Origin: Hydrogenobaculum sp. Y04AAS1
Lineage (GTDB): Bacteria; Aquificota; Aquificia; Aquificales; Aquificaceae
DNA length: 64,000 bases
Assembly: GCF_000020785.1 (NCBI RefSeq)
Contig: NC_011126.1
Coordinates: forward strand, 682,001 to 746,000
Reading direction: 5' to 3'
Below, in pieces: positions 5,119-63,301 of the stretch. A program made the position numbers and the translations under genes. The notes below the pieces were generated by a model, which was given only the letters and a program-made list of their open reading frames with translations, did no database searches and was not told where the DNA came from. Each line of letters starts with the position of its first letter. Position 1 is the stretch's first letter.

Positions 5119-5121
5119 TCT

Positions 5122-6603: not shown

Positions 6604-6608
6604 TTTGT

Positions 6609-9738: not shown

Positions 9739-9742
9739 GATT

Positions 9743-10883: not shown

Positions 10884-11208
10884 AACGATTGCCAGCAAAT
10901 TGTTGGTTCAAAATGTAAGTCAGTATTTTATTTTATCATTTATACTTCTTGGAATAGGACTTTTTGGCATGATGGTTAGAAAAAACCTTATTACCATTCT
11001 AATGTCTTTGGAGTTAGCGTTAAACTCTGTAAATATAGCCTTTGTTGGCATAGATAGGCTAAATCATCTTATAGATGGAGAGATTTTTGCCCTTTTTACA
11101 ATAGCTTTAGCTGCTGCCGAAGCAGCTGTTGGTCTTGGTATTATACTTTCTTTATTTAGATTAAGAAAAGCAGAAAACGTAAACGAAATTATAGATTTGA
11201 AGGGGTAA
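10876..11208 (+). CDS. nuoK: NADH-quinone oxidoreductase subunit K (copy 2)
   Basis: A 110-aa three-helix subunit with the two membrane glutamates at Glu46 (LMSLELALN) and Glu82 (AAAEAAVG). A longer in-frame start exists at 10852, but ATG 10876 has GAGGAG at 10863-10868 in front. Compared with copy 1 it has about 12 extra N-terminal residues. The gap to nuoL2 is two bases, with AAGGGG just before the nuoL2 ATG. Confidence 0.93.
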   Translation: MIETIASKLLVQNVSQYFILSFILLGIGLFGMMVRKNLITILMSLELALNSVNIAFVGIDRLNHLIDGEIFALFTIALAAAEAAVGLGIILSLFRLRKAENVNEIIDLKG

Positions 11209-11210
11209 AG

Positions 11211-13049: not shown

Positions 13050-14520
13050 TCTTCTCAACATCGCTATATTTTTACCTTTGGTGGGCGCTTTTATAGTGTC
13101 TCTTTTCAGAAATGAGTGGCTTACTAAGGTAGTGTCTATAGCAATATCAGGGGTCGTTTTTGCTTTAAGCGTTATACTACTTGTTAACTTTAATCCAAAT
13201 ACTCACCATTTTCTTTATAGGACCACTGTACCATGGATATCATCCCTTGGTATAAATTACGATGTTGGCTTAGATGGGCTTGGCGTATCTTTGTTTACTC
13301 TCACCGCTCTTATATTTTTTACAGTTTTTATATGGGCTATAAAAGTAAAGGAAAAACCGAATCTCTTTTACGCATTGTTTCTAATACTCGAAACCACTTG
13401 TCTTGGCACGTTCTCTGCCCTTGATCTATTCTTGTTTTACCTTTTTTGGGAAGGAATGCTAGTTCCTATGTACTTCATAATAGGTTTTTGGGGACATGAT
13501 AGAAAAATCTACGCTGCCAACAAATTCTTTATATACACATTTTTCGGTAGCTTATTTTTACTGCTTGGTTTAGCCACAATGATAGTTTATGGTTATTTCA
13601 TAAGCGGTCATATATCTTTTGAATATGATTTTCACAGACACATAGCTTATCCTCTCTGGCTTCAAATAATACTTTTTGTGCTTTTTGGTATAGGTTTTGC
13701 AGTGAAAGTACCTATGTGGCCTGTCCACACATGGCTTCCAGATGCTCACGTAGAAGCTCCTACGGCTGGTTCAGTAGTTTTAGCGGGTGTTTTGCTAAAA
13801 ATGGGTACTTTTGGCTTTGTAAGATACTCTCTTCCACTTTTCCCACAAGCTTCCAAAATATTTATTCCTGTAATGTTTGTGCTTAGTATAATAGCCATTA
13901 TTTACGCTGCTATGATGGCTATATCTCAAACAAACATAAAGAAGTTAATAGCCTATTCTTCAATCAGCCACATGGGAATGGTGACTCTTGGAACATTTGC
14001 CCTTTCCGTAAGCGCTATAAACGGGGCTTCTTATATGATGATAGCTCACGGACTTAGCTCCGCAGCCCTATTTTATGCAGCCGGTTTTATATACGATAGA
14101 TTTCACTCTTACGAGATGTCGGATTTAGGCGGTATAGCCAAATATCTTCCAAACTTTGCTATTTTATTTATGATAAGTGGTTTGGCGTCTATAGGGCTTC
14201 CTGGTTTCTCTGGCTTTGTTTCTGAGTTTTTAATACTACTTGGCACTTTCAAATATTTCCCAATGTGGGCTATTGTTGCTGGTGTAGGAATGGTGCTTGG
14301 CGCAGCATATTTCTTGTATATGTATAAGAATGTAATGCTTGAATCTGCCTCTTTACCAGAATCTAAAATCCAAAAACTTCAACATACAATGGACTTGGAG
14401 CTTCACCACATAATACCTTTTGTTCTAATACTTTTTGGGGCTTTTATTATGGGAATTATGCCATATAACTTTGTTAACATAGTCTCTCAAACATCAAAGC
14501 TTATTTTAGGGAGATTTTAA
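13042..14520 (+). CDS. nuoM: NADH-quinone oxidoreductase subunit M (copy 2), antiporter-like
   Basis: A 492-aa antiporter-like subunit. It carries the helix-5 Glu137 (FWEGMLVPMYFIIG), VHTWLPDAHVEAPTAGSVVLAG, and GLPGFSGFVSEF with Glu395, the usual late-helix acidic residue. In contrast, copy 1 has Lys at that place. It overlaps nuoL2 by 8 bases and shares one base with nuoN2. This copy looks like a standard NuoM. Confidence 0.95.
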   Translation: MASLLNIAIFLPLVGAFIVSLFRNEWLTKVVSIAISGVVFALSVILLVNFNPNTHHFLYRTTVPWISSLGINYDVGLDGLGVSLFTLTALIFFTVFIWAIKVKEKPNLFYALFLILETTCLGTFSALDLFLFYLFWEGMLVPMYFIIGFWGHDRKIYAANKFFIYTFFGSLFLLLGLATMIVYGYFISGHISFEYDFHRHIAYPLWLQIILFVLFGIGFAVKVPMWPVHTWLPDAHVEAPTAGSVVLAGVLLKMGTFGFVRYSLPLFPQASKIFIPVMFVLSIIAIIYAAMMAISQTNIKKLIAYSSISHMGMVTLGTFALSVSAINGASYMMIAHGLSSAALFYAAGFIYDRFHSYEMSDLGGIAKYLPNFAILFMISGLASIGLPGFSGFVSEFLILLGTFKYFPMWAIVAGVGMVLGAAYFLYMYKNVMLESASLPESKIQKLQHTMDLELHHIIPFVLILFGAFIMGIMPYNFVNIVSQTSKLILGRF

Positions 14521-34368: not shown

Positions 34369-35373
34369 ATGCTATCCATGAAATTTTACGTTTTTGGGCT
34401 TTTAGTATTGATGTTGTCTTTATTTTCTTGCGAAAAGCCAAAAACTAAAGAAATAAGCAAAGGGATAAAATCACCAAATATAGCTTTATGCAAAGTAGTT
34501 TACGGAGCTTACCAAGTAAAAACACCAATATACGGAGAAGTACAAAACCAAGCTGCCACTTATGTGAGTTCACCCATTGGAGGGATATTAAAATCTGTTT
34601 ACGTTAAAAATGGAGACTTTGTAAAAAAAGGACAGGTTATAGCAAAGCTCGATACAAAAGTTTTTCAAGATAAAGCCCTATCAATAGCCCAAGACATAGA
34701 GGCTTCTAAGAAAAAACTAAAATATTACATGTCTCGCTACGAGAGGGCGAAAAAACTATATAAGCTTGGTTCTATGTCATATCAAGAGTATTCTCAAATA
34801 AAAACGGATTTGGCTTTGGCTAAAGGAGAGCTTGATAAAAACATATATCTTAAAAAATCTTTAGAAGATGAAGCATCTTATGGTATTATAAAAGCTCCTT
34901 TTGACGGAATTGTTTCAAATGTAGTCCCAAGCGGTAGCAATGTAAATCCAGGATCTCCGATCGCTTTTATAAGCGCCAAAAAGCTTTATGGGGAGTTTTT
35001 TATACCTTTTAATATGAAAATCTCACATACAGATAAGATTTTGTTTGAGAACAAACTGTATCCTATAAACGCCTTTCAAGATGATAAATCGAGGTTAGCC
35101 GTAATATTACCCATATCTTCTTATGAAAATCCAGGAAGCAGTTTAAAAGCTTTTATTGTAAAAACAATACAAGGTCAAAGAATACCTTCAAAAGCTTTAG
35201 TACTTTATAACAACAGGCCAAGCGTTTTTATAGAGCAAGGTGATAAAGTAAAAAATATACCTGTAAAAATATTAGGCAATATGGGGCAATACTATGTGGT
35301 TTCTGGAGTAATAGGGGATAGTGTAGTTTGTAAAGGTGCTAAGCTTCTAAAAGATGGCGAAAAGGTTAAATGA
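34369..35373 (+). CDS. RND efflux periplasmic adaptor, lipoprotein (pump 1)
   Basis: A 334-aa membrane fusion protein that would link an inner-membrane RND pump to an outer-membrane channel. The N-terminus is a lipoprotein signal ending LFSC (Cys21). Then come the lipoyl halves (SSPIGGILKSVYVKNGDFVKKGQVIAKLD and IKAPFDGIVSNVVPSGSNV) around a helical hairpin. ATG 34369 and ATG 34378 are both possible; a TATCAT at 34365-34370 lies seven bases before the second, which would make that one leaderless. It overlaps the RND gene by four bases. Confidence 0.85.
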   Translation: MLSMKFYVFGLLVLMLSLFSCEKPKTKEISKGIKSPNIALCKVVYGAYQVKTPIYGEVQNQAATYVSSPIGGILKSVYVKNGDFVKKGQVIAKLDTKVFQDKALSIAQDIEASKKKLKYYMSRYERAKKLYKLGSMSYQEYSQIKTDLALAKGELDKNIYLKKSLEDEASYGIIKAPFDGIVSNVVPSGSNVNPGSPIAFISAKKLYGEFFIPFNMKISHTDKILFENKLYPINAFQDDKSRLAVILPISSYENPGSSLKAFIVKTIQGQRIPSKALVLYNNRPSVFIEQGDKVKNIPVKILGNMGQYYVVSGVIGDSVVCKGAKLLKDGEKVK

Positions 35374-38300
35374 GATCCTTTGTAAGCTTTGCTATAAAAA
35401 ATAGATACGCATTTTTTATAATCTTTGGCGTATTATCTGTACTTGGTTATATGCTATCTTTCAAACTACCAGAAGATATATTTCCAAACGTCGTATATCC
35501 AAGGGTAGTTATTACAGTAAATGCCAACTATGAACCTATCCAAAAAACCCTCTCAAATATCACCATACCAATGGAACAAGGGATAAAATCTGTAGAAGGT
35601 GTGACAGACGTAAGATCAAGAACTGGACCAGGTCTTGTTATGCTAAACGTATATTTTAGTCCAAATACAAACCCTTATAGAGCTTATCAAATGATTATGT
35701 CAAAAATATCAGAACTTCAAATGGATATGGGAGTAAAGGCGAGTTTTGATGTAAGACTTATGGGACCTAGCGCCTATTCTATAGCAGGTTATGCTTTAGT
35801 ATCAAGAGAACTACCTATAAACAAACTTAGCAACATAGTAAGGTATACAATAAAACCAGCCCTTTTGTCTATACCGGGCGTTTATGAAGTGGATATGGTC
35901 GGTGGAACTTATAGCACTATGGACGTAGTTTTAAATCCTTCTGTTATACAGAAATTAAATATACCTATAAGCGTAATCTTAAACGATATAAGAAGCTATA
36001 CACAAAATCACTTTATAGGTGAATACAATCAGAAAAACTTTTCTATTTTAGTGTTTGGTATTCAAACCCCAAAAGATGAACAAGATATATTGAACATTCC
36101 AATATACTACAACAACCAGACTATAACCCTTGGAGATGTTGCCTATGTGGTAAAAGGTCATTATCCTATGCTCTCTTACGTTAACGTAGACGGGTATCCT
36201 TCCACAGTTATATTTAACATACACAGGACCAACAATGCCAATGCTATAAAAATTGTAAATGAAGTGGATAAAACCCTCAAAAGCTTGAAACTCCCACCCC
36301 ATGCTCATATTGTAAAATGGTTTGATGTCACAGATTTTATAAGCTCTTCTATAAGAAGCGTTATAGATGCCATCATAATAGGATCATTGATCACACTTGT
36401 GGTCATAGCTATTTTTCTAAACAACGTTAGGCTTTCTCTTCTAACAGCTATAGTTATACCAGTAAGCATCTTATGTGCATTACTTTTTATGTATATACTA
36501 CATGGAAGCTTAAATCTCATGAGTCTTGGTGGTTTGGCGGCATCTATAGGAGCTCTAGTAGATCATGCTATTGTGGTAATGGAAAACATAGAGAAAAATA
36601 TAAACAAACCAAGACCAAAGCTTGAATCTGTAATAGATGCATCTTCTGAAATCCTAAAACCCATGACACTTGCAACGCTTACATCTGTTAGTGTATTTGC
36701 TCCTCTTTTTTTCTTATCTGGTATCATTGGTACATTCTTTAAAGAGCTAGCTTTGGCTGTTATTTTGGCGCTCTTAATATCTCAGTTTGTTTCTATGACA
36801 ATAACCCCTTCTATAGCTTACATAGCTATACCAAAAGTTGTAAAACCAGAACCTAATTGGCTTTTAAAACTTACAAATATCTATAAAAAACTTTTTCTTA
36901 GTTTTTACAAAAGAAAAAATTTAAGTATTTTAATAGTAGCTTTGTTGCTTTTAACATCGTTTGGTCTTTATAAAAGCATGAAAACCGGGTTTTTACCAGA
37001 ATGGGATGAGGGTATGTTTGTGCTTGATTTCACAGGACCCTCCGGTGCATCTTCTCAAAACACATACCAGATAGTAAAACACATAGAAAAGATAGTGGCG
37101 TCTATACCAGAGGTAAAGCACTATTCGGTAAGAATAGGTGCATCTTTAGGCCAACCAAGAAACCCCACCAACAAGGGAGATATGCTTATTACCTTAAAAG
37201 ACCACAGGACAAAATCTATTTTTGAAGTAATGAGAGAAATAAGACAAAAAGTAGATGCAAAAATACATGTTTTGAAAGAGTTTGATATGGCCCAAGTTTT
37301 AAGAGACAGACTTGGCGATATCACAGGCCAGCATGCTCCTTTTTCTGTAGTAATACATGGCTCTGATCCAGAAACCCTTGTAAAACTTGGAGAAGAAATA
37401 AGAGATAAAATAGCCAAAGAACCTATCTTCAAAGAGGTAAATTTAAAAACGCTATTTTACGGGCCTTATTATTATATTTCCTTGAAAAAAGACGCTTACT
37501 CCAACTATGGCATAACTTACGACGACGTGGTAAATACATTAAAGCTTCATCTTTGGGGCATAACACTTACAAACTATCTAAAAGGTCAAGAAAGGATATT
37601 TATAAGAGCTTACGAACCTTTTGATCCAAACGAAGAAACCATAAAAGATATAAACATCTACTCTTCCAAAAAACACATGTATATACCAATTTCTTTGGTA
37701 GCAAATATAAGATTTGAAAAAAATGTACCGGGTATTACAAGAAGAAACCTTCAGAATGTATCTGTGGTGAGAGTGAAAATGCACCATGAAGATTTGGCTC
37801 TTGGAATAAGAGTTTTAAAAAAAGTGCTTAATAATATTGTTATGCCACAAGGATATTATTACACCATAGAAGGTTTTTACAAAGAACAGCAACAATCTTT
37901 TAAAGAGATGTTTATAGTGATAGGCTTTTCTGTACTGATAGTTTTGGCGCTTTTAATATTTCAATTTGGCTCACTCCTACAAGCTTTATCGGTTATTTTT
38001 GTGCTATCGTTGTCTGTGGTGGGGGTTTTTTTAGCCCTGATGATAACCAATAAGCCCTTAGACGTTACATCGTTTATGGGTATGCTTTTGGTTTTAAGCG
38101 TTGTTGTAAACAACGGTATCTTGATATTTGATTATTACAACAAAGAGTTAGAAGAAAATGTATCCCATAAAGAAGCCATGCTAAACGCTTGTAAAAAACG
38201 CTTTAGACCTATACTTATGACAATGGTAGCAGATGTACTTGGGTTTTTGCCTATAGCTTTGGCTATTGGAAGAGGAACAGAAGTAATACAAAATATGGCA

Positions 38301-38417
38301 ATATCTGTTATGGGTGGTCTTTTTATAGGTATATTTCTTTCACTTCTTGCTCTTCCAATCTTTTACACCACGCTAAGGGGTATATTCCTTAAGCTTAGAC
38401 TTTCAAAAAATCTATGA
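35370..38417 (+). CDS. RND-family efflux transporter (pump 1)
   Basis: A 1015-aa inner-membrane transporter with 12 TM helices and two large periplasmic loops. The helix-4 region reads GGLAASIGALVDHAIVVMENI, with one Asp and the VMENIE motif, closer to the multidrug/hydrophobic group than to the metal (DFG..D...E) type seen in pump 2. The substrate is unknown. It pairs with the lipoprotein adaptor upstream. No outer-membrane factor gene is adjacent, so it may share the TolC-like protein at 46007. Confidence 0.88.
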   Translation: MRSFVSFAIKNRYAFFIIFGVLSVLGYMLSFKLPEDIFPNVVYPRVVITVNANYEPIQKTLSNITIPMEQGIKSVEGVTDVRSRTGPGLVMLNVYFSPNTNPYRAYQMIMSKISELQMDMGVKASFDVRLMGPSAYSIAGYALVSRELPINKLSNIVRYTIKPALLSIPGVYEVDMVGGTYSTMDVVLNPSVIQKLNIPISVILNDIRSYTQNHFIGEYNQKNFSILVFGIQTPKDEQDILNIPIYYNNQTITLGDVAYVVKGHYPMLSYVNVDGYPSTVIFNIHRTNNANAIKIVNEVDKTLKSLKLPPHAHIVKWFDVTDFISSSIRSVIDAIIIGSLITLVVIAIFLNNVRLSLLTAIVIPVSILCALLFMYILHGSLNLMSLGGLAASIGALVDHAIVVMENIEKNINKPRPKLESVIDASSEILKPMTLATLTSVSVFAPLFFLSGIIGTFFKELALAVILALLISQFVSMTITPSIAYIAIPKVVKPEPNWLLKLTNIYKKLFLSFYKRKNLSILIVALLLLTSFGLYKSMKTGFLPEWDEGMFVLDFTGPSGASSQNTYQIVKHIEKIVASIPEVKHYSVRIGASLGQPRNPTNKGDMLITLKDHRTKSIFEVMREIRQKVDAKIHVLKEFDMAQVLRDRLGDITGQHAPFSVVIHGSDPETLVKLGEEIRDKIAKEPIFKEVNLKTLFYGPYYYISLKKDAYSNYGITYDDVVNTLKLHLWGITLTNYLKGQERIFIRAYEPFDPNEETIKDINIYSSKKHMYIPISLVANIRFEKNVPGITRRNLQNVSVVRVKMHHEDLALGIRVLKKVLNNIVMPQGYYYTIEGFYKEQQQSFKEMFIVIGFSVLIVLALLIFQFGSLLQALSVIFVLSLSVVGVFLALMITNKPLDVTSFMGMLLVLSVVVNNGILIFDYYNKELEENVSHKEAMLNACKKRFRPILMTMVADVLGFLPIALAIGRGTEVIQNMAISVMGGLFIGIFLSLLALPIFYTTLRGIFLKLRLSKNL

Positions 38418-38455
38418 TACTTTTAGAAGTTTAAAATTTGAACATCATTTTTATT

Positions 38456-38461
38456 TATAAT
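38456..38461 (+). promoter_or_regulatory. -10 box (TATAAT) for prmA, leaderless arrangement
   Basis: A perfect TATAAT ends six bases before ATG 38468 and there is no Shine-Dalgarno, so transcription should start at the ATG. The box also argues against the longer frame from 38438, whose start would lie upstream of the transcript. Confidence 0.55.
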
Positions 38462-38467
38462 GTTTAT

Positions 38468-39331
38468 ATGGAATATCAAATTTTTATATACGAAATAGAC
38501 AAAGAGCTTTTAGAGGATTCGCTTATAGAAGAGGCTTTTGGTTTTGAGATTTTAGAAAAGAAAGAAAATCTATGGAAAATATCAACAGACAAAAAGATAG
38601 ATGGCATAGAACCAATAGAGATAAAAAAGATAAACTACGATGAATTTGAATTTGGTGAGATAGAACCTATAAAAGAAGATATTTTTGTGATAGTGCCCTC
38701 TTACGCTATACCAATAAAGATTAAAAAAGGTATGGCCTTTGGCACAGGTCTTCACGAGAGCACAAAGCTCATGCTATCTTTGATGAAAGATTTTATAGGA
38801 GCTTACGACAGTGTGTTGGATGTAGGATGTGGAAGCGGTATACTTACAATTGCCAGCAAATATCTTAGCAAAAGCTATGTAAAAGGTATAGATATAGATC
38901 CAATAGCTATCCAGGAGGCTATAGAAAATGCAAAAAACAACCGTATTGAAGATATACACTTTGAAGTGGCATCTCCAGAAGATATTCTTATAAGAAGATT
39001 TGAATATAGCTCTAAAAAATTAAAACATATAAAAGATGAGTTTTTCTACGATTATTTTATTGGAGTTTATGATGTAGTTTTAGCCAACTTAGAAATGCAT
39101 ATTTTCGAAAAAGAGCTTCCAAACATCGCAAAGCTATTTAAAAAATATCTTACAATATCAGGCATATACAAAGATGAGGATAAACTTATTAAAGATATGA
39201 TTAACAATCTACATCTTAAAATCCTAAAACAAACCACAAAAAACGATTGGCATGGATTTGTAGTAAAACACGTTGAAATGGAAAATAATAGCAACCTGGA
39301 TACTAAAATAGATTTTACTAGGAAGTGTTAA
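38468..39331 (+). CDS. prmA: Ribosomal protein L11 methyltransferase
   Basis: A 287-aa SAM-dependent methyltransferase. The SAM motif LDVGCGSGILTIAS and the preceding MAFGTGLHESTKLML (the PrmA hallmark GTG.H.TT-like) are clear, and VLANLEMHIF stands where PrmA has the NI.... catalytic segment. The N-terminal substrate domain (about 1-80) is short and divergent. An upstream ATG at 38438 is in frame but is rejected on promoter position. The gene is followed directly by the acyl-activating fusion protein. Confidence 0.85.
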   Translation: MEYQIFIYEIDKELLEDSLIEEAFGFEILEKKENLWKISTDKKIDGIEPIEIKKINYDEFEFGEIEPIKEDIFVIVPSYAIPIKIKKGMAFGTGLHESTKLMLSLMKDFIGAYDSVLDVGCGSGILTIASKYLSKSYVKGIDIDPIAIQEAIENAKNNRIEDIHFEVASPEDILIRRFEYSSKKLKHIKDEFFYDYFIGVYDVVLANLEMHIFEKELPNIAKLFKKYLTISGIYKDEDKLIKDMINNLHLKILKQTTKNDWHGFVVKHVEMENNSNLDTKIDFTRKC

Positions 39332-41806
39332 ATGTTTTTGAGATTTTATGACAAAACAGCTTTTATATACAAAGGTAAAAACATATCTTACAAAGAGTTA
39401 ATAGACAAAGCAGAATTTTACAGCGTAGCCATAGATATAATACCGGGGGATAGGGTTGTAATATTCTCAGAAAATAAACCAGAATGGGTTTATGCTCTTT
39501 TTGGTATATGGAGAAGGGGAGGTATAGCAGTACCTATAGACCATATGGCTTCCGAAGATGAAGTGGCGTTTATTATTCAAGATGCAAGACCAACTTATGC
39601 TTTTGTGTCAAGCGATCTAAAAGATACTTTTGCAAAAGCCGTAAAAAGGCATAGATATAAGGTAGAGGTTATAGATATAGAAGATTTTATACCTTTCCAA
39701 GACCCTAAAGAGCCCATCACAAACATTTCTGAAGATATAGCTCTCATTCTTTATACCTCTGGTACCACTGGACAACCTAAAGGTGTCATGCTTACGTTTG
39801 GAAACCTTCAATCTAACACAGAGGCTATAGCTAAAGAAAATATAGCTTCCTCAAAAGACATCACCATAGCTCTTCTTCCATTTCACCATGCTTATCCTCT
39901 CATGGTATCTTTATTGGTACCAATTTATCTTGGCGCTACAATTATATTTAGCGAAAACCTTTCTTCTAGTTCGTTGATAAATTTAATCATTGCAAACAAA
40001 GTAACTGCTCTCATTGGGGTACCAAAGCTTTACAAAATATTACACGACAAAATATTTGGAGAGATAAAAGATATTCCTGTAGCAAAAAAGATGTTTTCCT
40101 TTGTAGATTTTGTTGGTAGTCCCAAGCTTGGTAAGATTATTTTTAAAAAAGTTCACAAAAGCTTTGGCGGTAATCTCAAATATTTTATAAGTGGCGGGGC
40201 TAAATTAGATCCAAATATAGCACACGATCTTTATATGCTTGGATTTGATGTATTGGAAGGGTATGGTCTTACTGAGACATCACCTATAGTAAGCTTTAAC
40301 GTACCCGGTAGTATAAAAATAGGTTCTGTTGGAAAACCTATTCCTGGGGTAGAAGTGAAAATAGCAGAAGATGGCGAGGTTTTGGTAAAAGGAAAAAATG
40401 TTATGAAAGGTTATTGGCAAAGACCTGACCTTACAAATGAAGCTATAAAAGATGGTTGGTTCTATACTGGTGATATAGGTTATCTAGATGAAGATGGTTA
40501 TCTTTACATAATAGGTAGGAAAAAAGAGCTTATAGTGCTTGAAAACGGCAAAAAAGTAATACCAGAAGAAATTGAAAACCTTATTCTTTCCAAAAGCGAT
40601 ATAGTAAAAGAAGTGGCTGTTATAGAACAAAATGGACATCTACATGCCATAATAGTACCAAATTTTGAGTTGGTAAAAGAAAAAGGTATATTAAATCTAA
40701 GAGAATATATTACTTGGGAAGTTATCGATAAGGTAAACCGTGAGTTGCCTTCTTACAAAAATATAACTGATTTTAGCATAAGAGAAGAAGAACTGCCAAA
40801 GACAAGACTTGGAAAAATAAAAAGGTTTTTGTTAAAAGCCCAAGACAACGTACCATTAAAAGCTAAAGAGCAAACTTATAAAGAAGAAGAAAAAAAACTT
40901 ATTGGTATATTGACAGAACAAGAAGGAATATTGCTTGATTATCTCAGGAGATACAAAAGTGATATATCTCCTAAAGATCACATAGAGATAGACCTTGGTT
41001 TGGATTCTTTGGATAAGGTGGAACTTTTAAGCTTTTTAGATAGAACCTTTGGTATACAAATATCAGAAAAAGAACTTTCTAAATATTTATCTGTAGAGCA
41101 ATTAATGAACTTGGTACTAGACAAAGAAGCTAAGCAAACAAAAGAAGTAAACTGGCACGACATACTAAGCGAAACCGCTCCTGCTGAAACATTAGAATAC
41201 AAAGACGAAGTTTTAGTATACGGTTCTTATTTGTTAAAACAAAGTTTTAGAGTTTACTTTAAGTTCCAAGTAGAGGGCTTACCAAATCTACCAAAAGAAA
41301 ATCCATTTATAATAGCACCAAATCACGCTAGTTATTTAGATGGATTTTTAATAGCGGCTTCCTTGCCAAAAGAACTTATAAAAGATACATATTTTGTAGG
41401 AGCAAAAGAATACTTTGAAGGCAAAGTTGGAACTATTGTTGCTAAATATTTTCATGTTATAACAGTAGATACCCAATCCAGCGTTAAAGAAACACTCATA
41501 AAATCTGCAGCTGTTTTAAAAAGCAAAAAAAATTTAGTTATATTTCCAGAAGGAGCTAGAACTAGAAACGGTAAACTACTTCCATTTAAAAAAGGCGTGG
41601 CTATATTGAGCAAAGAACTTAAAGTACCTATTGTCCCAACGGCTATAAAAGGGTCTTACGATTCAATGAAGATAGGTGATATATTTCCAAAACCTAAAAA
41701 GATCGTTGTAAGGTATGGATGGCCTCTTTTAGATTACGAGTTTTCTTACGATGAAATCATAGGAAGGTTGGAAGAAGCGGTGCAATCCCTTCTTAATTTA
41801 TCTTAA
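39332..41806 (+). CDS. Fusion: AMP-forming acyl ligase, acyl carrier protein and PlsC-type acyltransferase
   Basis: An 824-aa three-part protein. Residues 1-510 are an acyl-adenylating ligase (YTSGTTGQPKG at 141-151, EGYGLTETSP, and GWFYTGDIGYLDEDGYLYIIGRKKEL). Around Ser559 is an acyl carrier domain with the phosphopantetheine site GLDSLDKVEL. From about 640 on is a 1-acyl-glycerophosphate-type acyltransferase with NHASYLD (Asn664, His665, Asp670) and FPEGARTRNG. The likely path is activation of a free fatty acid, loading on the built-in ACP and transfer to a lysophospholipid. E. coli Aas has the opposite domain order and no ACP. The lipid substrate is inferred. Confidence 0.88.
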   Translation: MFLRFYDKTAFIYKGKNISYKELIDKAEFYSVAIDIIPGDRVVIFSENKPEWVYALFGIWRRGGIAVPIDHMASEDEVAFIIQDARPTYAFVSSDLKDTFAKAVKRHRYKVEVIDIEDFIPFQDPKEPITNISEDIALILYTSGTTGQPKGVMLTFGNLQSNTEAIAKENIASSKDITIALLPFHHAYPLMVSLLVPIYLGATIIFSENLSSSSLINLIIANKVTALIGVPKLYKILHDKIFGEIKDIPVAKKMFSFVDFVGSPKLGKIIFKKVHKSFGGNLKYFISGGAKLDPNIAHDLYMLGFDVLEGYGLTETSPIVSFNVPGSIKIGSVGKPIPGVEVKIAEDGEVLVKGKNVMKGYWQRPDLTNEAIKDGWFYTGDIGYLDEDGYLYIIGRKKELIVLENGKKVIPEEIENLILSKSDIVKEVAVIEQNGHLHAIIVPNFELVKEKGILNLREYITWEVIDKVNRELPSYKNITDFSIREEELPKTRLGKIKRFLLKAQDNVPLKAKEQTYKEEEKKLIGILTEQEGILLDYLRRYKSDISPKDHIEIDLGLDSLDKVELLSFLDRTFGIQISEKELSKYLSVEQLMNLVLDKEAKQTKEVNWHDILSETAPAETLEYKDEVLVYGSYLLKQSFRVYFKFQVEGLPNLPKENPFIIAPNHASYLDGFLIAASLPKELIKDTYFVGAKEYFEGKVGTIVAKYFHVITVDTQSSVKETLIKSAAVLKSKKNLVIFPEGARTRNGKLLPFKKGVAILSKELKVPIVPTAIKGSYDSMKIGDIFPKPKKIVVRYGWPLLDYEFSYDEIIGRLEEAVQSLLNLS

Positions 41807-41852
41807 TTATGTAGTTTTTGGCTTTTAGCAAAGGCTTAGCTTATTTATGTGC

Positions 41853-41858
41853 TATAAT
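41853..41858 (+). promoter_or_regulatory. -10 box (TATAAT) and ribosome site for serA
   Basis: TATAAT 31 bases before the serA ATG, followed by GGAGG at 41880-41884. Unlike several other first genes here, serA would have a normal leader of about 25 bases. No convincing -35 is seen. Confidence 0.5.
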
Positions 41859-41889
41859 ATATATTCTAACTAATGTTGCGGAGGTTTTT

Positions 41890-43473
41890 ATGAAAGTTTT
41901 AATCACCGACCCAATATCCCCAAAAGGCGTAGAGATTCTTAAAAAAGAATTTGAAGTTGATTATTATCCAGAAATCAAGTTTGAAGAGCTCTTAGAAATA
42001 GTGGGAAATTACGATGCAATAGTCACAAGAAGTAGGACCCCCATCACCACAGAGCTCTTAGAAAGGGCGAAGAATCTAAAAGTTATAGGAAGGGCAGGGG
42101 TAGGCGTAGACAACGTAGATATAGAAACAGCTTCTAAAAAGGGTATTTTGGTATGTAATACACCCGGAGCAAATACGATAGGCGCCACAGAGCTCACCAT
42201 AGGACATATGATAAATATCATCAGAACTATACACAAAACCCACAACACCATAATGGATTATAGATGGGAAAGACATAGTTTTATGGGTATTGAGCTTTTT
42301 GGAAAAACATTAGGTATAATAGGTTTAGGAAACATAGGCTCTCAAGTGGCCATAAGGGCAAAAGCCTTTGGAATGAAGGTCATTGCCTATGATCCTTATA
42401 TACCAAGAGAAAAAGGTGATAGATTGGGAGTAAAACTATACGATGATTTGGATGAAATGTTGGGGATCTCGGATGTTATCACCGTTCATACACCACTAAC
42501 CCACGAAACGAAAGGAATGATCAACAAAGAACGCATCGCTAAGATGAAAGATGGTGCTATTGTTATAAACTGCGCTAGGGGTGGTATCATAGTAGAATGG
42601 GATCTTATAGAAGCTCTTAAAAGCGGGAAACTATACGGAGCTGGTATAGATGTTTTTAGTAAAGAACCACCACCAAAAGAGCTCGTTGATGCTTTTAGAG
42701 AATGTAAAAATGTATCTTTGAGCGCTCACATAGGAGCAAATACCTATGAATCTCAAGAAAATGTTGGTATCATAATAGCTCAGCAAGTAACCAAAGCCCT
42801 TAAGGGTCAGCCCGTAGATTACGTAGTAAATGCACCTTTCCCAGATATATCTGTGATAACACTTATAAAACCGCACTTAGATTTGGCTGAAAATATGGGA
42901 AGTCTTGTAGCTCAGCTTAGCACAGACGGTATAAAAAAGATAAAAATAGAAGTTATAGGAGACTTGGCTCAAAACTCAAAACCTGTAGTAGCTGCTGTGT
43001 TAAAAGGTGTTTTAAAAAGTATAACAGATTATCCAGTAAATATAATAAATGCTACATATCTTGCAAAAGATTACGGCATAGAAGTAGAGGAAATAGCAAA
43101 TGAGGAGTCTCAAGACTTTAAACATTATATAAAAATAACCGCTTACGGAGACGTACAAGAAAAAGTTGTAGGTGGTAGTCTAATAGAAAATCAAATACCT
43201 CGCATCTTGCAAATAGATAGATTCTATGTGGACGTTGAGCCAGAAGGTGTTATGCTTGTATTTGAAAATAAAGACGCACCTGGGGTAATAGGTACCATAG
43301 GGTCTATCTTAGGTCAAGCCAATGTCAATATAGCTGGCTTTAGATTAGGGAGAGAGAAAAAAGGCGGATTAGCATTAGGAGTATTGAACCTAGATTCTAA
43401 AGTAAGCGATGAGGTGTTGGAAAAACTAAAGAGAATACCACAAATTATCTCTATGAAGCAGGTAATCTTATGA
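41890..43473 (+). CDS. serA: D-3-phosphoglycerate dehydrogenase
   Basis: A 527-aa enzyme starting the serine pathway. The NAD-binding motif [10 protein letters not shown], the catalytic [11 protein letters not shown] region with a later [10 protein letters not shown] and an intervening substrate domain (about 330-450) precede a C-terminal ACT domain ([17 protein letters not shown]), the four-domain long form. The frame is open from 41818, but ATG 41890 has GGAGG five bases upstream and the usual N-terminus [10 protein letters not shown]. It overlaps lysC by four bases. Confidence 0.94.
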
Positions 43474-46006: not shown

Positions 46007-47278
46007 ATGAGATTAGATAAAATAAAAGGCGTTGTTTTTGGTTTCTTGGTATATGGGCTTTTAATATCAAAAACTTCATTCTCAGAAGAAAAACCATTAG
46101 AGCTAACACCGGCTCAAGCAGTTTCTATCTTTATACACAACAACTACAACGTTTTAATAGATAAATACAACATAGATAAAGCTTACGCAAACTATCTTGA
46201 ATCAAAAGCCCATACAAATCCAAGTATATACATGTCAAGCGTACAGCACGAAATAAGAAATGGAGAGTTAAGAAGTAGAGATTCCACATCAAACATAGGT
46301 ATAGCTAAGCTTTTCAGAATGGGTGGCAAAAGAAGCCTAAATATGAAGTTAAACTATGCTCTTTACAAATCTTCTATTTTTACCCACGATGACAATGTAA
46401 GAAATCTTCTCATTGGATTTATGAGTCTATATTATCAAGTGATAATAGACAAAATAGCTTTAAGACAAGCTAAAGATGACCTTGATAATTATGAAAAAGT
46501 TTTAAAGATTGCAAAATATCAAAGAGATTACGGTTTTATATCAAATCTTGATTATTTTAAATTGTCTGTTTACAAAGTAAACCTTCAAAGTGCTGTATAT
46601 CAAGCCCAGTCTCAATATAAAAATGATTTAAAACAGTTAAAAACCCTAATGAGAATAAAAAAACCTATACGATTAAAAGCTGGTTATCCAGTGGCATTTT
46701 TACTAAATCAAAAACCTAACTTGAAAAAATATGAAGAGCTTGCTTTGAATAGATTTGACATAAAAGCTGCAAGATATCAACTTCAATCAGATCTTTACAA
46801 TTTAAAATTCCAAAAAGCCCAAAATATACCAGATTTAACCTTTAACTTTGAAATAGATACGGTGGGAATAGACTCGGAAGGTAGAAGATATCCTTTTATG
46901 ATAGGTGCTGGGCTTACTTTTCCACTTCCTATATTTGATAGAAACGTAGGTGGTATACTAAACGCAGCTTACAGTATAAAACAAGATAAACTGATGCTAA
47001 AAAACTTAGAAAATACAGCTAAAACACAAACTTATCAAGCTTATCAAAACTTTTTGAGCGCACAAAAAACCTTTAGAGCTTACGTGGAGAAAAAGAAAGA
47101 AATTGAAAAAATCTTAGATATATCTCAAAAATCTTTTGCTTTAAGAGGTATATCCGTACTAGATTTGTTAGATGCAGAGAGAACTTATAAAGATTTTATG
47201 GCAAGTTACAGAAGTGCTTTGTATCAACTTATGTTAAGTAGAACACTTTTAGATTTTTATAGTAGGGGCAGCTTATGA
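46007..47278 (+). CDS. TolC-family outer membrane efflux channel (pump 2)
   Basis: A 423-aa protein with an N-terminal signal peptide (cleavage near SFS-EEK) and the two repeated coiled-coil halves of the outer membrane efflux family (LTPAQAVSIF..NNYNVLIDKYNIDKAYANYLE in the first, AARYQLQSDLYNLKFQKAQNIPDLTF in the second). The GISVLDLLDAERTY segment near the end is a family hallmark. It is the first gene of a complete tripartite set and overlaps the adaptor gene by four bases. Confidence 0.88.
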   Translation: MRLDKIKGVVFGFLVYGLLISKTSFSEEKPLELTPAQAVSIFIHNNYNVLIDKYNIDKAYANYLESKAHTNPSIYMSSVQHEIRNGELRSRDSTSNIGIAKLFRMGGKRSLNMKLNYALYKSSIFTHDDNVRNLLIGFMSLYYQVIIDKIALRQAKDDLDNYEKVLKIAKYQRDYGFISNLDYFKLSVYKVNLQSAVYQAQSQYKNDLKQLKTLMRIKKPIRLKAGYPVAFLLNQKPNLKKYEELALNRFDIKAARYQLQSDLYNLKFQKAQNIPDLTFNFEIDTVGIDSEGRRYPFMIGAGLTFPLPIFDRNVGGILNAAYSIKQDKLMLKNLENTAKTQTYQAYQNFLSAQKTFRAYVEKKKEIEKILDISQKSFALRGISVLDLLDAERTYKDFMASYRSALYQLMLSRTLLDFYSRGSL

Positions 47279-48396
47279 AGACTAAGATTTTCAAAGGTAT
47301 TTTTAGAGGTGCTTTTTTATCAGGTTTGGTTTGCATGGCTTTTACTAGTACTAGTTGCAACAACTCTAAAGCCTCAAACAACACTACCAATCAAAATGAA
47401 GTGAAATCCCCAGAGACAAACAATATAAAAATAGTAAAAGTAAAAGTTTCCACCTTTACTAAAAGCCTAAAACTCCCAGGCACTGTAAAATCTTCTCCAA
47501 ATGGGGTTGTAAACGTTACTTCATCTGTGAACGGTGTTATAGAAAGAGTGCTTGTAAACATAGGCCAAAATGTCCACATAGGACAACCTCTTTTCTTGGT
47601 AAAATCTGCCGATGTGGCTAACCTATATTCAAATTATCTTCAAGCAAAAGCCCAATACGAGCTTGCTAAAAAAACTTACGAGCTTACAAAAAAGCTTTAC
47701 ACTATTGGTTCTATGTCAAAGTTTGATCTTGATAACGCTATAGCAAATCTAAAATCTTCCAAAGCCCTCATGGATGGATACTATGCCCAAATGCGTATAA
47801 TAGGTTTAAGAGGTGGTGGTTCTTACGTAATGACAAAATATATTACAAGTCCAGCCGATGGTGTAGTAGCAAAATTAAACATACACCCTGGTGAAAAGAT
47901 CATTGTAGATCCTTATACACCACTTGCTACGATAGTAGATACATCCCATGTGATGGTAGAAGCAGATGCTTTTAGCAAAGATATAAGGTTCATAAAACCT
48001 GGTCAAGAAGTGGATATCACAACATCTTCTTATCCAGGAGTTGATTTTAAAGGTAAGGTATTTTATGTAGGAGATATAGTAGATCCAAACACAAGGACTT
48101 ACAAGGTTTATATAAATGTTCAAAACATACAAAACTTCCTAAAACCAAATATGTTTGTAAACGTAAAGATCATGCCAAATTCTGTAAATGCAATAGCAAT
48201 ACCTCAAAGCGCTTTAATATTTGACAACAATAAATTTTATGTTTTAAAGTATGAAAATGGAAAGTATAAAAAAACAGAAGTAAAAGTATATCAAGTAAAA
48301 GACGGCACAGCGTATATAAAGAGCGGCCTTAACGAAGGTGATAGCATAGTGGCCTCCGGAAGTCTTTTGATAAAGGGTTCTATAGGAGGAGAGTAA
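47275..48396 (+). CDS. RND efflux periplasmic adaptor, CzcB-like (pump 2)
   Basis: A 373-aa membrane fusion protein. The N-terminal hydrophobic stretch ends in a lipobox-like TSTSC. Lipoyl halves (VNVTSSVNGVIERVLVNIGQNVHIGQPLF and ITSPADGVVAKLNIHPGEKI) flank a helical hairpin, and a beta-barrel domain follows (VEADAFSKDIRFIKPGQEVDI). This is the layout of CzcB/CusB-type adaptors. No His-rich metal domain is seen, so the metal is not indicated. Confidence 0.86.
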   Translation: MKTKIFKGIFRGAFLSGLVCMAFTSTSCNNSKASNNTTNQNEVKSPETNNIKIVKVKVSTFTKSLKLPGTVKSSPNGVVNVTSSVNGVIERVLVNIGQNVHIGQPLFLVKSADVANLYSNYLQAKAQYELAKKTYELTKKLYTIGSMSKFDLDNAIANLKSSKALMDGYYAQMRIIGLRGGGSYVMTKYITSPADGVVAKLNIHPGEKIIVDPYTPLATIVDTSHVMVEADAFSKDIRFIKPGQEVDITTSSYPGVDFKGKVFYVGDIVDPNTRTYKVYINVQNIQNFLKPNMFVNVKIMPNSVNAIAIPQSALIFDNNKFYVLKYENGKYKKTEVKVYQVKDGTAYIKSGLNEGDSIVASGSLLIKGSIGGE

Positions 48397-48400
48397 ACCT

Positions 48401-51400
48401 ATGAGGTCATTTATAAATTTTGTTTTACAAAATAAAATAGTGTTTATATTTATAACTGTTCTGCTTTTTATATTTTCTATATTTGGCCTTAAAAAGCTTG
48501 ATGTAGAACCATTCCCTGATTACTCTCCGGTAGTAGTAGAAATTACCGCTATATACGCTGGACACTCCGCAAAAGAAGTAGAAAAGCAAGTGACTATACC
48601 TCTTGAAAGTGCTCTTTCGGCAATACCTTACGCCACTAAGATAAACACACTTTCTTTGTACGGACTTTCTGATGTGAAAGTTACATTTAGCTACGATATA
48701 AGCTATGATGCCGCTAAACAGCACGTTATAAATAGGCTTACCCAAGTTAATCTTCCACCAGGTGTACAACCAGTTATCCAATCAAACCCGGTGGGCGAGG
48801 TAATGAGATTTCAAGTAAGGGGCTTAAAACACCAATCTCTTATGTACTTAAGAACCTTAGCAGATTGGCCTATATGTAGGCAAATTAAAACTGTACCAGG
48901 TATAGAAGATTGCAATCCTATTGGTGGTTTTGAAAAGCAATATCAGGTAATAGTAGACCCTCAAAAGCTTGTAAAGTATAACCTTACACTATCTCAAGTA
49001 CAAAACGCCATAGCAAACGCCAATATAAACGTAGGTGGCAATTACACAGAAATAGGAGAGCAAACATACACAATCCGTGGTATTGGGCTTATAAAAAATT
49101 TAAATGATATAAAAAATATAGTTTTAACAAACTACAACGGTACGCCTATCACCGTGGCAGATATCGGTAAAGTAAGAATAGGACATGCACCAGTCCAAGG
49201 TTACATGGGGCTTAGTATAAGAGAACCAAACGGAAAATGGTATTCAAGAAATCAAGTGGTAGTGGTAACGGCTGTTATGAGAAAAGACGCCCAGTCTGTA
49301 CCTACTTTGAGAGCTTTAAACAAAAAAATTAAAGAATTAAACGAACAATACAAATCTCAAGGGGTGGAGTTGGTACCATATTACACAAGACAAACCCTTC
49401 TAAACGCTGTTATACATAAGATTAAAGAAAACGCCACAATAGGTATTATCTTGATACTTGCCATGGTGATTTTCTTCTTGGGAGATGTGCCAGTGGCTCT
49501 TATTGTTGCATCTGTAGTACCGGTTGCACTCATATCCACACTAGCTCTTATGGCTATAAGAGGTGAAGAAGCAAATCTCATATCTTTAGGAGCTGTAGAT
49601 TTTGGTATTATCATAGATAGTGCTATACTTTTAGCAGAAAATATCTTTAGAATATCAGAAGAAAAAGATAATCATAACGCAGATTACGTTATAGCTTACG
49701 CTACAATGGATATAGGAAAACCAGTGTTATTTTCTATACTTATCATAATAGCTTCTTTTATACCACTTTTCATGATGAGCGGAGCCCAAGGGGTTTTGTT
49801 TAGCCCTATGGCAAGAACCTATGTATACGCTTTAGCTATAGCTATAATCCTTACTTTTACTTTTGTACCATCTGCTATAGGTCTTGTCAAAAAACAAATA
49901 GATAAAAAAGAACCAAAACTTCCCTTGTTGCTAACAAATTTTTATATTAAAATCCTAAAACAAATATTAAAAATAGCAAAACCTTTTGCGATAGTTAGTT
50001 TCATTGTAATAGCTATTATGCTGATAAGTTTCAAGTTTTTAGGAACAGAGTTTATACCAACCTTAGATGAAGGTAATATATACCTAAGAATTACATTTCC
50101 ATACAGCATAGCTCTTTCTACATCCCATAAATATGCCAATGAAGTAAGACAGTATATGATGACATTTCCAGAAGTAATCTCAGCAGATAGTAGAGCCGGA
50201 AGACCTGAAGATGGTACCGATGACGTTGGCCCTTATGATACAGAATATTCTATCCAGCTTTTACCATATTCCAAATGGCCCTCTGGAATGACTAAGAAAA
50301 AGCTTGAAAATATAATGAGAAAGCATCTGGAAAAAATGTTTCCTGGTGGTGATGTAAACTTTTCTCAATATATCCAAGACAACTTTGACGAGGTGCTTTC
50401 TGGGGTGAAGGGTGAAAACTCTTTAAAAATATATGGACCAAATTTAAAAGAATTAGATAAATTAGGAAGAGAGATAACCCCAATACTAGAACATGTAAAA
50501 GGTATGGCAGATGTAGGAATGTATAAAGAATTAGGACAACCTGAGATAGATGTAAGGGTAGATAGAGAAAAAGCTGCAAGATATGGTTTAAATACTGGAG
50601 ATGTTTTAAATATAATACAAGCTGCAATAGGAAGTTCTCCAGTGACAGAAGTACTAAAGGGTGATGAGCAATTTGATTTGGTTATAAGATTTCCCAAAGA
50701 TTATAGGAAAACTGCTAAAGATATAGCTTCTATACCAATATTAACCCCCACTGGACAGCTTATTAAACTTGGTGATGTAGCAAATGTACAATATCATATA
50801 GGAGCTTTCTTTATATATAGAGAAAATTATCAAAGATTCTTACCTATAAAATTTAGCATAACCACATCAAACGTAGGGGGCGTTATCAAAAGCGCCAAAG
50901 AAGCTATAGCAAAATCTGTAAAGCTACCACCAGGCTATCATCTTGAATGGAGTGGCGAATACAAACAGATGATACAAGCTCAGCACCAAATGGCTATCAT
51001 AATACCAGTGGCTGTTTTCATAGCTTTGGCTATTTTGTATCTTTACTTCAAATCTTTAAGATATACTTTTGTAGCTTTTTCAAGTGCGATAGTGGCTATA
51101 GGCACTGCTATAGTAACGCTCCTTGTCCTTAAAATGGCTTTTAGCGTTTCCTCTGCCATAGGATTTATATCTATAATGGGTGTTTCTATTATGAATGGTT
51201 CTGTCATAGTGACCCAGTTTATTAGACTTTATGAAAGTGGGTTATCAGTTTACGATGCTGTCATAGAAACTATGAAAGATAAGTTTAGACCTGTATTGAT
51301 GACAGGTTTAGTGGCAGCTTTAGGACTATTACCTGCAGCTGTAAGAACAGGTATAGGCACACAAGTGCAAAAACCTTTGGCTGTAGTGGTAGTAAGTGGT

Positions 51401-51484
51401 ATGAGCATAGGTACTATTGCTACCTTACTTTTAATACCAGTGCTTCTTTATATAATACCGCCAAAAGATTATGCTAAGTTTTAA
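48401..51484 (+). CDS. CzcA/CusA-type RND efflux transporter (pump 2)
   Basis: A 1027-aa inner-membrane pump. Helix 4 reads AVDFGIIIDSAILLAENI, with the Asp, Asp and Glu arranged as in heavy-metal RND pumps (DFG...D.....EN), around residues 398-413. The family start RSFINFVLQNKIVFIF and DVEPFPDYSPVVVEI are also typical. Metal export is the likely function; Cu/Ag versus Co/Zn/Cd cannot be decided from what I see. It closes the OMF-MFP-RND operon. Confidence 0.9.
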   Translation: MRSFINFVLQNKIVFIFITVLLFIFSIFGLKKLDVEPFPDYSPVVVEITAIYAGHSAKEVEKQVTIPLESALSAIPYATKINTLSLYGLSDVKVTFSYDISYDAAKQHVINRLTQVNLPPGVQPVIQSNPVGEVMRFQVRGLKHQSLMYLRTLADWPICRQIKTVPGIEDCNPIGGFEKQYQVIVDPQKLVKYNLTLSQVQNAIANANINVGGNYTEIGEQTYTIRGIGLIKNLNDIKNIVLTNYNGTPITVADIGKVRIGHAPVQGYMGLSIREPNGKWYSRNQVVVVTAVMRKDAQSVPTLRALNKKIKELNEQYKSQGVELVPYYTRQTLLNAVIHKIKENATIGIILILAMVIFFLGDVPVALIVASVVPVALISTLALMAIRGEEANLISLGAVDFGIIIDSAILLAENIFRISEEKDNHNADYVIAYATMDIGKPVLFSILIIIASFIPLFMMSGAQGVLFSPMARTYVYALAIAIILTFTFVPSAIGLVKKQIDKKEPKLPLLLTNFYIKILKQILKIAKPFAIVSFIVIAIMLISFKFLGTEFIPTLDEGNIYLRITFPYSIALSTSHKYANEVRQYMMTFPEVISADSRAGRPEDGTDDVGPYDTEYSIQLLPYSKWPSGMTKKKLENIMRKHLEKMFPGGDVNFSQYIQDNFDEVLSGVKGENSLKIYGPNLKELDKLGREITPILEHVKGMADVGMYKELGQPEIDVRVDREKAARYGLNTGDVLNIIQAAIGSSPVTEVLKGDEQFDLVIRFPKDYRKTAKDIASIPILTPTGQLIKLGDVANVQYHIGAFFIYRENYQRFLPIKFSITTSNVGGVIKSAKEAIAKSVKLPPGYHLEWSGEYKQMIQAQHQMAIIIPVAVFIALAILYLYFKSLRYTFVAFSSAIVAIGTAIVTLLVLKMAFSVSSAIGFISIMGVSIMNGSVIVTQFIRLYESGLSVYDAVIETMKDKFRPVLMTGLVAALGLLPAAVRTGIGTQVQKPLAVVVVSGMSIGTIATLLLIPVLLYIIPPKDYAKF

Positions 51485-61534: not shown

Positions 61535-63301
61535 ATGCTTGTATTTGGAATTCATTGTCATCAACCTATAGGAAACTTTGATTACGTATTTGAGGAAGCC
61601 TATGAAAAGGCTTATAGACCTTTTATAGATTTTTTTTACAAGCACGAAGATTTTAAGCTTTCAGCACATTTTAGTGGAATTCTTTTTGAATGGTTTTTAA
61701 AAAATAAAAAAGATTTTATGGAAAAATTGGCAGATATGGTCCAAAGAAATCAGCTGGAGATAATAGGCGGTGGTTATTACGAACCTATACTTGCATCCAT
61801 ATCAAAAGAAGATAGAATTCTTCAGATAAAAAAACTAAACAACTTTTGCAAAAATACACTTGGTAAAAGCCCAAAAGGTATATGGTTAACAGAACGTATA
61901 TGGGATACTTCGGTTTTACAAACCATAATAGAGCTTTCTATGGATTATATCATCATAGATGATTATCACATAGTTTCTGCTGGTTATCCTTTTGAAGAAG
62001 GCTTTTATTTTACAGAAGATGAGGACAAAAAAGTAAACCTTGTACCCATAGACAAAAGGCTTAGATATAAAATTCCTTTCGATGAACCAAAAAATGCAGT
62101 AGATTTTATCAAAAGCCAAAAAACCTCAATTATAATAGACGATGGTGAAAAATTTGGCATATGGCCATACACATATAAAACAGTATACGAAGAAAGATGG
62201 TTAGACAGGTTTTATGAGCTTTTAAAACAAGAAAATATAGAGACCAAAACTATATCTGAAGCCCTAAAGGACGCTCATAAAAGGTTGGTTTATCCAGCAT
62301 CAGTTTCTTATGAAGAGATGGGACATTGGGCGCTAAATTGCGAAGATGCTATAGCTTACCAAGAGGCCAAAGAGCAGTGTAAAAGGTTTGAAACGTTTAT
62401 AAAAGGTGGTATTTGGAAAAACTTTTTCACAAAATATCAAGAATCAAACTACATGCACAAAAGAATGCTTGAGGTTTCAAAAAAATCTTCTAAAAAAAGA
62501 AAATCTTCTAAAAAAGATTACATATTAAAAGCCCAGTGCAACGATGCTTATTGGCATGGAATATTTGGCGGCATATATTTTCCTCATTTAAGAAGAGAGG
62601 TTTGGAACAACATAATAAAAGCTGATTTTGAAAACAGTTCTCATGAGATTGTTAAAGAGGACATAGATTTTGATTGGGAGCTTGAGGTAAAATTAAAAGA
62701 TAAGGATTTTATAGTGGTGGTATCGGAAAAAGGCATCATCAAGGAGCTTTCCAAAAAAGAGGTAGGCAACCTAAACGTATGTCTATCAAGGTATAAAGAA
62801 TTTTATCATTTTATAAGTGAAAACCAAGAAAAAGAAGAGGGAAAAACCATCCATGAACTCAAAAAAGATATATCAAAATACAAAGACCTGATAGCTTACG
62901 ATGATAAACCAAGATTTTTTAGCTACGACAGCATAGACTGGAATCTTATAGATGTAAAAGAAAACACTATAACATTTCAAAAAGAAAACAACAAAAAGAT
63001 TATAAGGATTGAAGAAGGAGAATTTATATTAGAATATAACTTAAAAGATGAACTAAACGTAGATATAAACTTAGGCATTCATAGTATAAACTTAGACCCC
63101 TACGAGATAGATTCTAATCATATATCTTTTGAAGCTTTTGAAATAGATAAAATTAACATAGATTTTTCTAAAAACCAAAAACTAAAAGTATACCCTATAA
63201 AGACGGTGTCTCAATCCGAAAAAGATTTCGATGTTATAACTCAAGGCATATGCATTAGCTTTTTAGCTGGAGGTGAATTATCCGTAGAGATATCATGTTA
63301 G
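61535..63301 (+). CDS. GH57 family glycoside hydrolase (alpha-amylase / glucanotransferase-like)
   Basis: A 588-aa cytoplasmic enzyme acting on alpha-glucans. GH57 motifs: HCHQP (residues 7-11), GGGYYEP (78-84), WLTERIWD with the expected nucleophile Glu120, and IDDGEKFGIW around Asp202-Asp203 as the likely acid/base region, then MGHWALN. The C-terminal domain (about 330-588) looks like the beta-sandwich extension seen in alpha-amylases and 4-alpha-glucanotransferases of thermophiles. It has no signal peptide. Its end overlaps a lipoprotein gene by seven bases. Confidence 0.88.
   Translation: MLVFGIHCHQPIGNFDYVFEEAYEKAYRPFIDFFYKHEDFKLSAHFSGILFEWFLKNKKDFMEKLADMVQRNQLEIIGGGYYEPILASISKEDRILQIKKLNNFCKNTLGKSPKGIWLTERIWDTSVLQTIIELSMDYIIIDDYHIVSAGYPFEEGFYFTEDEDKKVNLVPIDKRLRYKIPFDEPKNAVDFIKSQKTSIIIDDGEKFGIWPYTYKTVYEERWLDRFYELLKQENIETKTISEALKDAHKRLVYPASVSYEEMGHWALNCEDAIAYQEAKEQCKRFETFIKGGIWKNFFTKYQESNYMHKRMLEVSKKSSKKRKSSKKDYILKAQCNDAYWHGIFGGIYFPHLRREVWNNIIKADFENSSHEIVKEDIDFDWELEVKLKDKDFIVVVSEKGIIKELSKKEVGNLNVCLSRYKEFYHFISENQEKEEGKTIHELKKDISKYKDLIAYDDKPRFFSYDSIDWNLIDVKENTITFQKENNKKIIRIEEGEFILEYNLKDELNVDINLGIHSINLDPYEIDSNHISFEAFEIDKINIDFSKNQKLKVYPIKTVSQSEKDFDVITQGICISFLAGGELSVEISC

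Follow-up and report, generated by a model that had tools for sequence, protein, structure and literature searches.

The window analysed here, a 64,000-nucleotide stretch of the Hydrogenobaculum sp. Y04AAS1 genome, contains a gene that raises the question of what an acyl ligase, an acyl carrier protein (ACP) and a PlsC-type acyltransferase would do together in a single chain. All Pfam domains of the 824-aa protein scored above their gathering scores (Table 1), which confirmed the three domain identities proposed in an earlier note made from the DNA letters; its residue numbers for Ser559, His665 and Asp670 were also exact in the translation of the open reading frame (ORF). The best solved-structure matches of the ligase were acyl-CoA ligases (E 5e-46), whereas 3kxw, which we take to be a fatty acyl-AMP ligase (FAAL), matched at a far lower level (E 2e-23). 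The best matches of known structure for the ACP domain were acyl carrier proteins, many of them mitochondrial (best E 7e-08), and the acyltransferase domain matched one solved structure, PlsC 5kym (E 5e-14), presumably the Thermotoga enzyme. A structure model of the C-terminal part, built from three input rows of which the other two were 80 and 92% identical to the window protein, had a mean pLDDT of 50 and was too poor for use.

Table 1. The three-domain gene, its predicted functional sites and its two flanking genes (positions in the window).
Feature	Positions	Strand	Evidence or remark
Upstream neighbour, PrmA-type methyltransferase	38438..39331	+	Stop codon abuts the ATG of the fusion gene
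Three-domain gene: acyl ligase - ACP - PlsC-type acyltransferase	39332..41806	+	ATG start; 824 aa; ORF list, Pfam, orthologue alignment
AMP-binding (ligase) domain, residues 5-362	39344..40417	+	Pfam PF00501, E 7e-73
Ligase phosphate-binding loop YTSGTTGQPKG, residues 141-151	39752..39784	+	Lys150 kept in 34/34
Ligase C-terminal domain, residues 399-498	40526..40825	+	Pfam PF23562/PF13193 (AMP-binding_C_3)
Lys495, predicted catalytic lysine, ligase C-terminal domain	40814..40816	+	Invariant in 34/34
ACP (PP-binding) domain, residues 535-594	40934..41113	+	Pfam PF00550, E 3e-06
Ser559, predicted 4'-phosphopantetheine attachment site, in LGLDSLDKVEL	41006..41008	+	Kept in 34/34
PlsC-type acyltransferase domain, residues 645-773	41264..41650	+	Pfam PF01553, E 8e-26; solved PlsC 5kym, E 5e-14
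Predicted catalytic HX4D motif, Asn664-Asp670 (His665, Asp670, in NHASYLDG)	41321..41341	+	Sequence, 34/34 conservation, motif alignment
Residue 691 (Ala), at the alignment position of the motif II Lys in stand-alone PlsCs	41402..41404	+	Motif alignment
Acyltransferase motif III FPEGARTR, residues 738-745	41543..41566	+	Arg743 in 34/34
Downstream neighbour, phosphoglycerate dehydrogenase (serA)	41818..43473	+	Pfam, NCBIfam

Nineteen Aquificota orthologues aligned with the protein over its full length (46-97% identity) and had the same three-domain chain. Residue conservation was counted in 34 fused proteins, comprising the window protein and 33 others, from which duplicates and near-duplicates had been removed (16 loci were dropped before the count). 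Lys150, Lys495 (which we take to be the catalytic lysine of the ligase C-terminal domain), Arg498, Ser559, Asn664, His665, Asp670, Glu740 and Arg743 were invariant in all 34. Since the active residues are invariant, each of the domains looks catalytically intact. Judged from the full-length alignment of orthologues together with these invariant residues, the three-domain chain is not a product of chance.

The distribution of the fusion was studied with a profile built from 20 proteins, which was searched against 121 sampled Aquificota genomes at a threshold of E 1e-60. Matches at this level or better were found in 100 genomes. The domain search across genomes that the earlier note had proposed thus recovered the full-length fusion in 71 of the 121 (counted from rows), and also in Fusobacteriota, Rubrobacter and two further phyla. 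One of the 71 copies, from a genome of the same family (G069, C4:425-2872), has an in-frame TAG and is possibly a broken gene or an assembly error. Seven further Aquificota genomes matched only in part, in several cases at contig ends or across two contigs. Another 22 had ligase-only matches, one in genome G011 and 21 in families f4 and f5, where the match ended at position 508-537. Beyond Aquificota, full-length copies were present in at least 7 of 296 genomes of the phylum that includes an Ignavibacteriaceae genome, a family which we assume to be Bacteroidota in GTDB, and in at least 1 of 349 genomes of the phylum of a gammaproteobacterium; both counts are lower bounds, with three and two candidates scored per genome, respectively.

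Among 72,556 plasmid records, four had one place covering ≥80% of the query, and they came from Ilyobacter polytropus, Fusobacterium vincentii, F. animalis and Rubrobacter radiotolerans. On the Ilyobacter plasmid pILYOP01, two full-length copies that differ from each other lie in tandem (4995-7478 and 7703-10162). All three domains were identified by Pfam in the Rubrobacter protein and in each of these two copies. In the F. animalis copy, PP-binding was not detected by Pfam at E 0.001, although the serine of the DSL motif is retained. The sources of F. animalis and I. polytropus were a colorectal tumour and marine mud, respectively. Several Aquificota genomes that are 94-100% complete had no match to the fused-protein profile, suggesting that its role is dispensable there; judging from their phylum, these genomes should belong to thermophiles. 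The suggestion in the earlier note that the enzyme is suited to hot or acidic habitats is therefore not supported, because bacteria from a tumour and from marine mud own the gene, as does R. radiotolerans, and several near-complete Aquificota do not.

Quick phylogenetic trees grouped the fused proteins of ~820 aa into one clade, with SH-aLRT supports of 94 for the ligase and 99 for the acyltransferase. These trees excluded 18 duplicate or near-duplicate loci, locus L066, and ligase or acyltransferase matches below 100 or 40 bits; the window protein was represented by its 97% relative (L002). A more careful acyltransferase tree, in which the divergent PlsC-like sequence L038 was omitted and the E. 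coli Aas row was trimmed, recovered the same clade (95/99). A single fusion event followed by spread would be the simplest account of this compact group. The Rubrobacter and proteobacterial proteins formed a second pair with longer chains, whose long branches meet. In the ligase tree, the closest enzymes outside the fusion were the lone f4/f5 ligases, which were 42-48% identical to the ligase domain in the nine loci fetched and were considered as a split ('Rosetta') version of the fusion. At the one of these nine loci whose neighbours were searched with Pfam (L044), the neighbours included an S4 domain protein, DAP epimerase, uracil-DNA glycosylase and similar proteins, and ACP and PlsC were absent among them. 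The f4/f5 enzyme thus looks like a related lone ligase and not a split fusion.

We next compared the fusion with known systems. E. coli Aas has both catalytic domain families in one chain and the NHxSxxDG acyltransferase motif, as does the fusion, and the window protein matched it by BLAST in the ligase (E 4e-32) and the acyltransferase (E 3e-10). However, Aas has its acyltransferase at the N-terminus, its synthetase at the C-terminus and no ACP domain, whereas the fusion runs ligase-ACP-acyltransferase. Checked directly by Pfam, the K-12 protein had the acyltransferase first (15-137) and AMP-binding second (233-568), and no PP-binding domain was found, which agrees with the earlier note that the order is opposite to that of Aas with its external ACP. 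The fusion scored below the cut-offs of the NCBIfam Aas-type models (PRK08633, 245.8 bits vs 1221; PRK08043, 157.5 vs 886), and none of the NCBIfam models among the matches listed reached its cut-off. Judged by its domain order and these scores, the fusion is not an Aas.

A review describes Myxococcus xanthus ElbD as a single chain of FAR, ACS, ACP and AGPAT-like domains, for which ACS and ACP activity was confirmed in vitro and acyltransferase activity was not detected (PMC9131029). It also mentions ElbD-like homologues without FAR, found in extremophiles as well as in other bacteria, and states that outside myxobacteria nearly all homologues lack this domain (PMC9131029). Compared by domain description, ElbD and the fusion share the ACS, ACP and AGPAT-like parts, and ElbD differs by an additional N-terminal FAR-like reductase (PMC9131029), a domain that Pfam did not find in the 824-aa chain. 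With ElbD and FAR-less ElbD-like homologues on record, the architecture of the fusion is already known (PMC9131029). Because these proteins have been described, we file the fusion under known multidomain lipid enzymes; it is probably Aas-like in action and is not a proven ElbD. No dedicated study of a three-domain protein without FAR was found in the literature searched. In Caulobacter, AasR and AcpR follow a similar logic, in which a ligase works with a specialised ACP to supply a single lipid enzyme, but they are separate proteins and the user is serine palmitoyltransferase (SPT), not a PlsC-type enzyme (PMC9386255). Two other proteins, L137 and L138, were considered as LplT-Aas type proteins and rejected, as an acyltransferase match was present in neither. 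L138 of Planctomycetota (1756-5169, minus strand) is a 1137-aa ORF that combines a ligase, an ACP with a GGDSL-type serine and an aminotransferase-like half, the latter presumably of the alpha-oxoamine synthase type.

The fused acyltransferase shares its Pfam family, the HX4D motif and motifs III and IV with PlsC, the lysophosphatidic acid (LPA) acyltransferase. However, stand-alone PlsCs are unfused, and those of Aquificota have other motifs I and II. All 16 of them had NHRSxxDP as motif I and a Lys after F-x-A in motif II; the 17th, the very divergent lone ORF L038 of the Hydrogenobaculum genome, does not fit the PlsC motif pattern. The fused domains mostly had NHxSxxDG (Gly in 27/34), and the segment separating motif I from motif II was longer in them than in the 16 stand-alone PlsCs. 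The aligned motif II Lys was missing in 22/22 Aquificota fused rows (Ala in the window protein; Glu, Asp or Ala in the others), and it was present in six of the seven fused copies from the Bacteroidota phylum and in one Ilyobacter copy. The window protein has a Lys one residue after the aligned position. E. coli Aas has the DG form of motif I, a longer motif I-II segment and no aligned motif II Lys, a likeness to the fused domains based on a single Aas sequence. With L038 left out, the 16 stand-alone Aquificota PlsCs formed one clade (99/98) that excluded the fused domains; the placement of E. coli Aas and PlsC was not used, as their long branches meet. With few yardsticks at hand, the motif comparison points to a lysophospholipid more than to LPA as the acceptor.

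The genome of the host, presumably an autotroph, encodes two PF00501 proteins, the fusion and one with an acetyl-CoA synthetase N-terminal domain; the fusion is thus the only candidate for a long-chain fatty-acid-activating enzyme in this search. PF00441 acyl-CoA dehydrogenase was not found in any of 31 genomes (that of the window and 30 relatives), in a search that was positive for 9 of 14 control genomes. With a single long-chain ligase candidate and no acyl-CoA dehydrogenase found, long fatty acids, once activated, most likely enter lipid assembly. PlsX and PlsY were each found once, and two separate PlsC-like ORFs are present besides the fusion, so the fusion is not the sole route to phospholipid and de novo phospholipid synthesis need not depend on it. 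E. coli LplT had a match in 0/31 genomes, in a search run without a positive control.

Taken together, we favour, with somewhat better than even confidence, a single-chain, Aas-like acyl-ACP synthetase/acyltransferase that uses its own ACP and re-esterifies free fatty acids to lysolipids. In favour of this Aas-like reading are the conserved residues of all three domains, the ACP matches, the genome content described above, the clade apart from stand-alone PlsCs, and the NHxSxxDG form, longer motif I-II segment and lack of the aligned motif II Lys that the fused acyltransferase shares with Aas. Points against it are the motif II Lys in six Bacteroidota-phylum copies and one Ilyobacter copy, the nearby Lys in the window protein, the different gene neighbours in other genera, the near-complete Aquificota with no match and the NCBIfam scores below cut-off. 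Based on its motif, Ser559 would first be modified by a phosphopantetheinyl transferase. The ligase, with its apparently intact motifs, would then convert free fatty acid and ATP to acyl-AMP, and its C-terminal domain would swing so that the acyl group is loaded on the tethered arm. The arm may then dock on the PlsC-type domain, where His665 and Asp670 would esterify a lysolipid, most likely a lysophospholipid, at the inner membrane face. In this way, the enzyme could reuse fatty acids liberated from endogenous lipids, in parallel with the standard PlsX/PlsY/PlsC pathway, and the salvage or repair role suggested by the earlier note stands as the best reading; the note's idea of a self-contained machine is a hypothesis. 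Precedents for parts of this scheme have been described: Aas re-acylates lysolipids via acyl-ACP with holo-ACP as substrate (PMC11416262), and a dedicated synthetase loads a dedicated ACP for one enzyme of sphingolipid synthesis in the AasR/AcpR/SPT system (PMC9386255). The fusion would unite both principles in a single polypeptide. Such a fusion would explain how a cell with no detectable acyl-CoA dehydrogenase handles free fatty acids. Its tethered carrier would free salvage from the ACP pool and would offer a compact tool for the synthesis or repair of lipids in vitro. The fusion is also relevant to the function of FAR-less ElbD-like proteins.

Three other functions were weighed against lysolipid salvage. 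The fusion might be an additional LPA acyltransferase that serves de novo synthesis, is joined to a salvage ligase and produces phosphatidic acid. The PlsC Arg is kept in motif III EGARTR in all 34 proteins and the only solved structure matched was a PlsC, in line with this idea. However, the genome has separate PlsC-like ORFs, the fused domain forms a clade apart from the 16 stand-alone PlsCs, and the Aquificota fused domains have neither the aligned motif II Lys nor NHRSxxDP, which makes this function unlikely. We consider improbable, too, that the protein is dedicated to a special acyl lipid (an amino-, glyco- or other lipid) instead of phospholipid repair: the genes around it in the window form no special-lipid cluster (at other loci, neighbours were compared only with those of the window), against which stand the AasR-AcpR-SPT system, where a ligase and a dedicated ACP serve one acyl-using enzyme (PMC9386255), and the planctomycete protein L138, which fuses a ligase, an ACP and an aminotransferase-like part.

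A FAR-less, ElbD-like ether-lipid enzyme would activate and carry a chain and acylate an alkyl (or pre-alkyl) glycerol intermediate, with the reductase as a separate protein. This is kept as a reading, albeit a quite unlikely one, because Aquificales contain alkyl ethers, with mono- and diethers reported in cultures (PMC3917532, PMC4339782). The domains shared with ElbD and the reported occurrence of FAR-less homologues in extremophiles (PMC9131029) also count in its favour. DUF2229 was matched in 0/5 genomes of the genus Hydrogenobaculum, though in 10 of the 31 genomes overall, which is a further point for it. DUF2229, presumably the Ger/PlsA type, is however unspecific for makers of ether lipids, as Lactococcus lactis was positive. 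The chain lacks the reductase domain by Pfam, and elbD homologues occur in Pontiella, in isolates of which ether lipids were reportedly not detected (PMC11868695). The FAR domain PF07993 had matches in 31/31 genomes and in 14/14 controls, so this test was uninformative. That the Hydrogenobaculum fusion is the key ether-lipid enzyme, placing the chain from its own ACP, with a separate reductase, onto a glycerol intermediate, seems very unlikely; if true, it would add another way in which bacteria make alkyl glycerol lipids, here in a thermophile lineage that branches early. In an Aquificaceae-family genome (G007), two adjacent ORFs at 1117-3296 of locus L113, one DUF2229 and one activator-like, were observed; we take the pair to be a possible split Ger/PlsA-type enzyme.

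Nearby genes in the window encode efflux proteins, PrmA, SerA, LysC and a heptose-kinase-like protein. A PrmA-type gene also lies upstream of the fusion in two other loci of the genus Hydrogenobaculum (L013 and L060). An operon partner was sought among the neighbours and rejected, as these two were the only ones among the loci compared to have the window neighbours next to the gene; at the loci of other genera examined, they were not kept beside it.

The window also contains several other gene groups. ORFs for proton-pumping subunits, both with Proton_antipo_M, are located at 1708-3609 and 11211-13046, and a fusion of the 30-kDa and 49-kDa complex I subunits at 6977-8692; the region 1708-14520 thus resembles a tandem of two complex I gene sets. 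Two RND efflux gene sets lie within 17 kb, at 34369-38417 (adaptor and pump) and 46007-51484, the second consisting of a pump (48401-51484) and a putative outer-membrane factor and adaptor (46007-48396). A glycosyl hydrolase of family 57 with alpha-amylase/4-alpha-glucanotransferase domains is encoded at 61535-63301 and perhaps serves glycogen-type storage.
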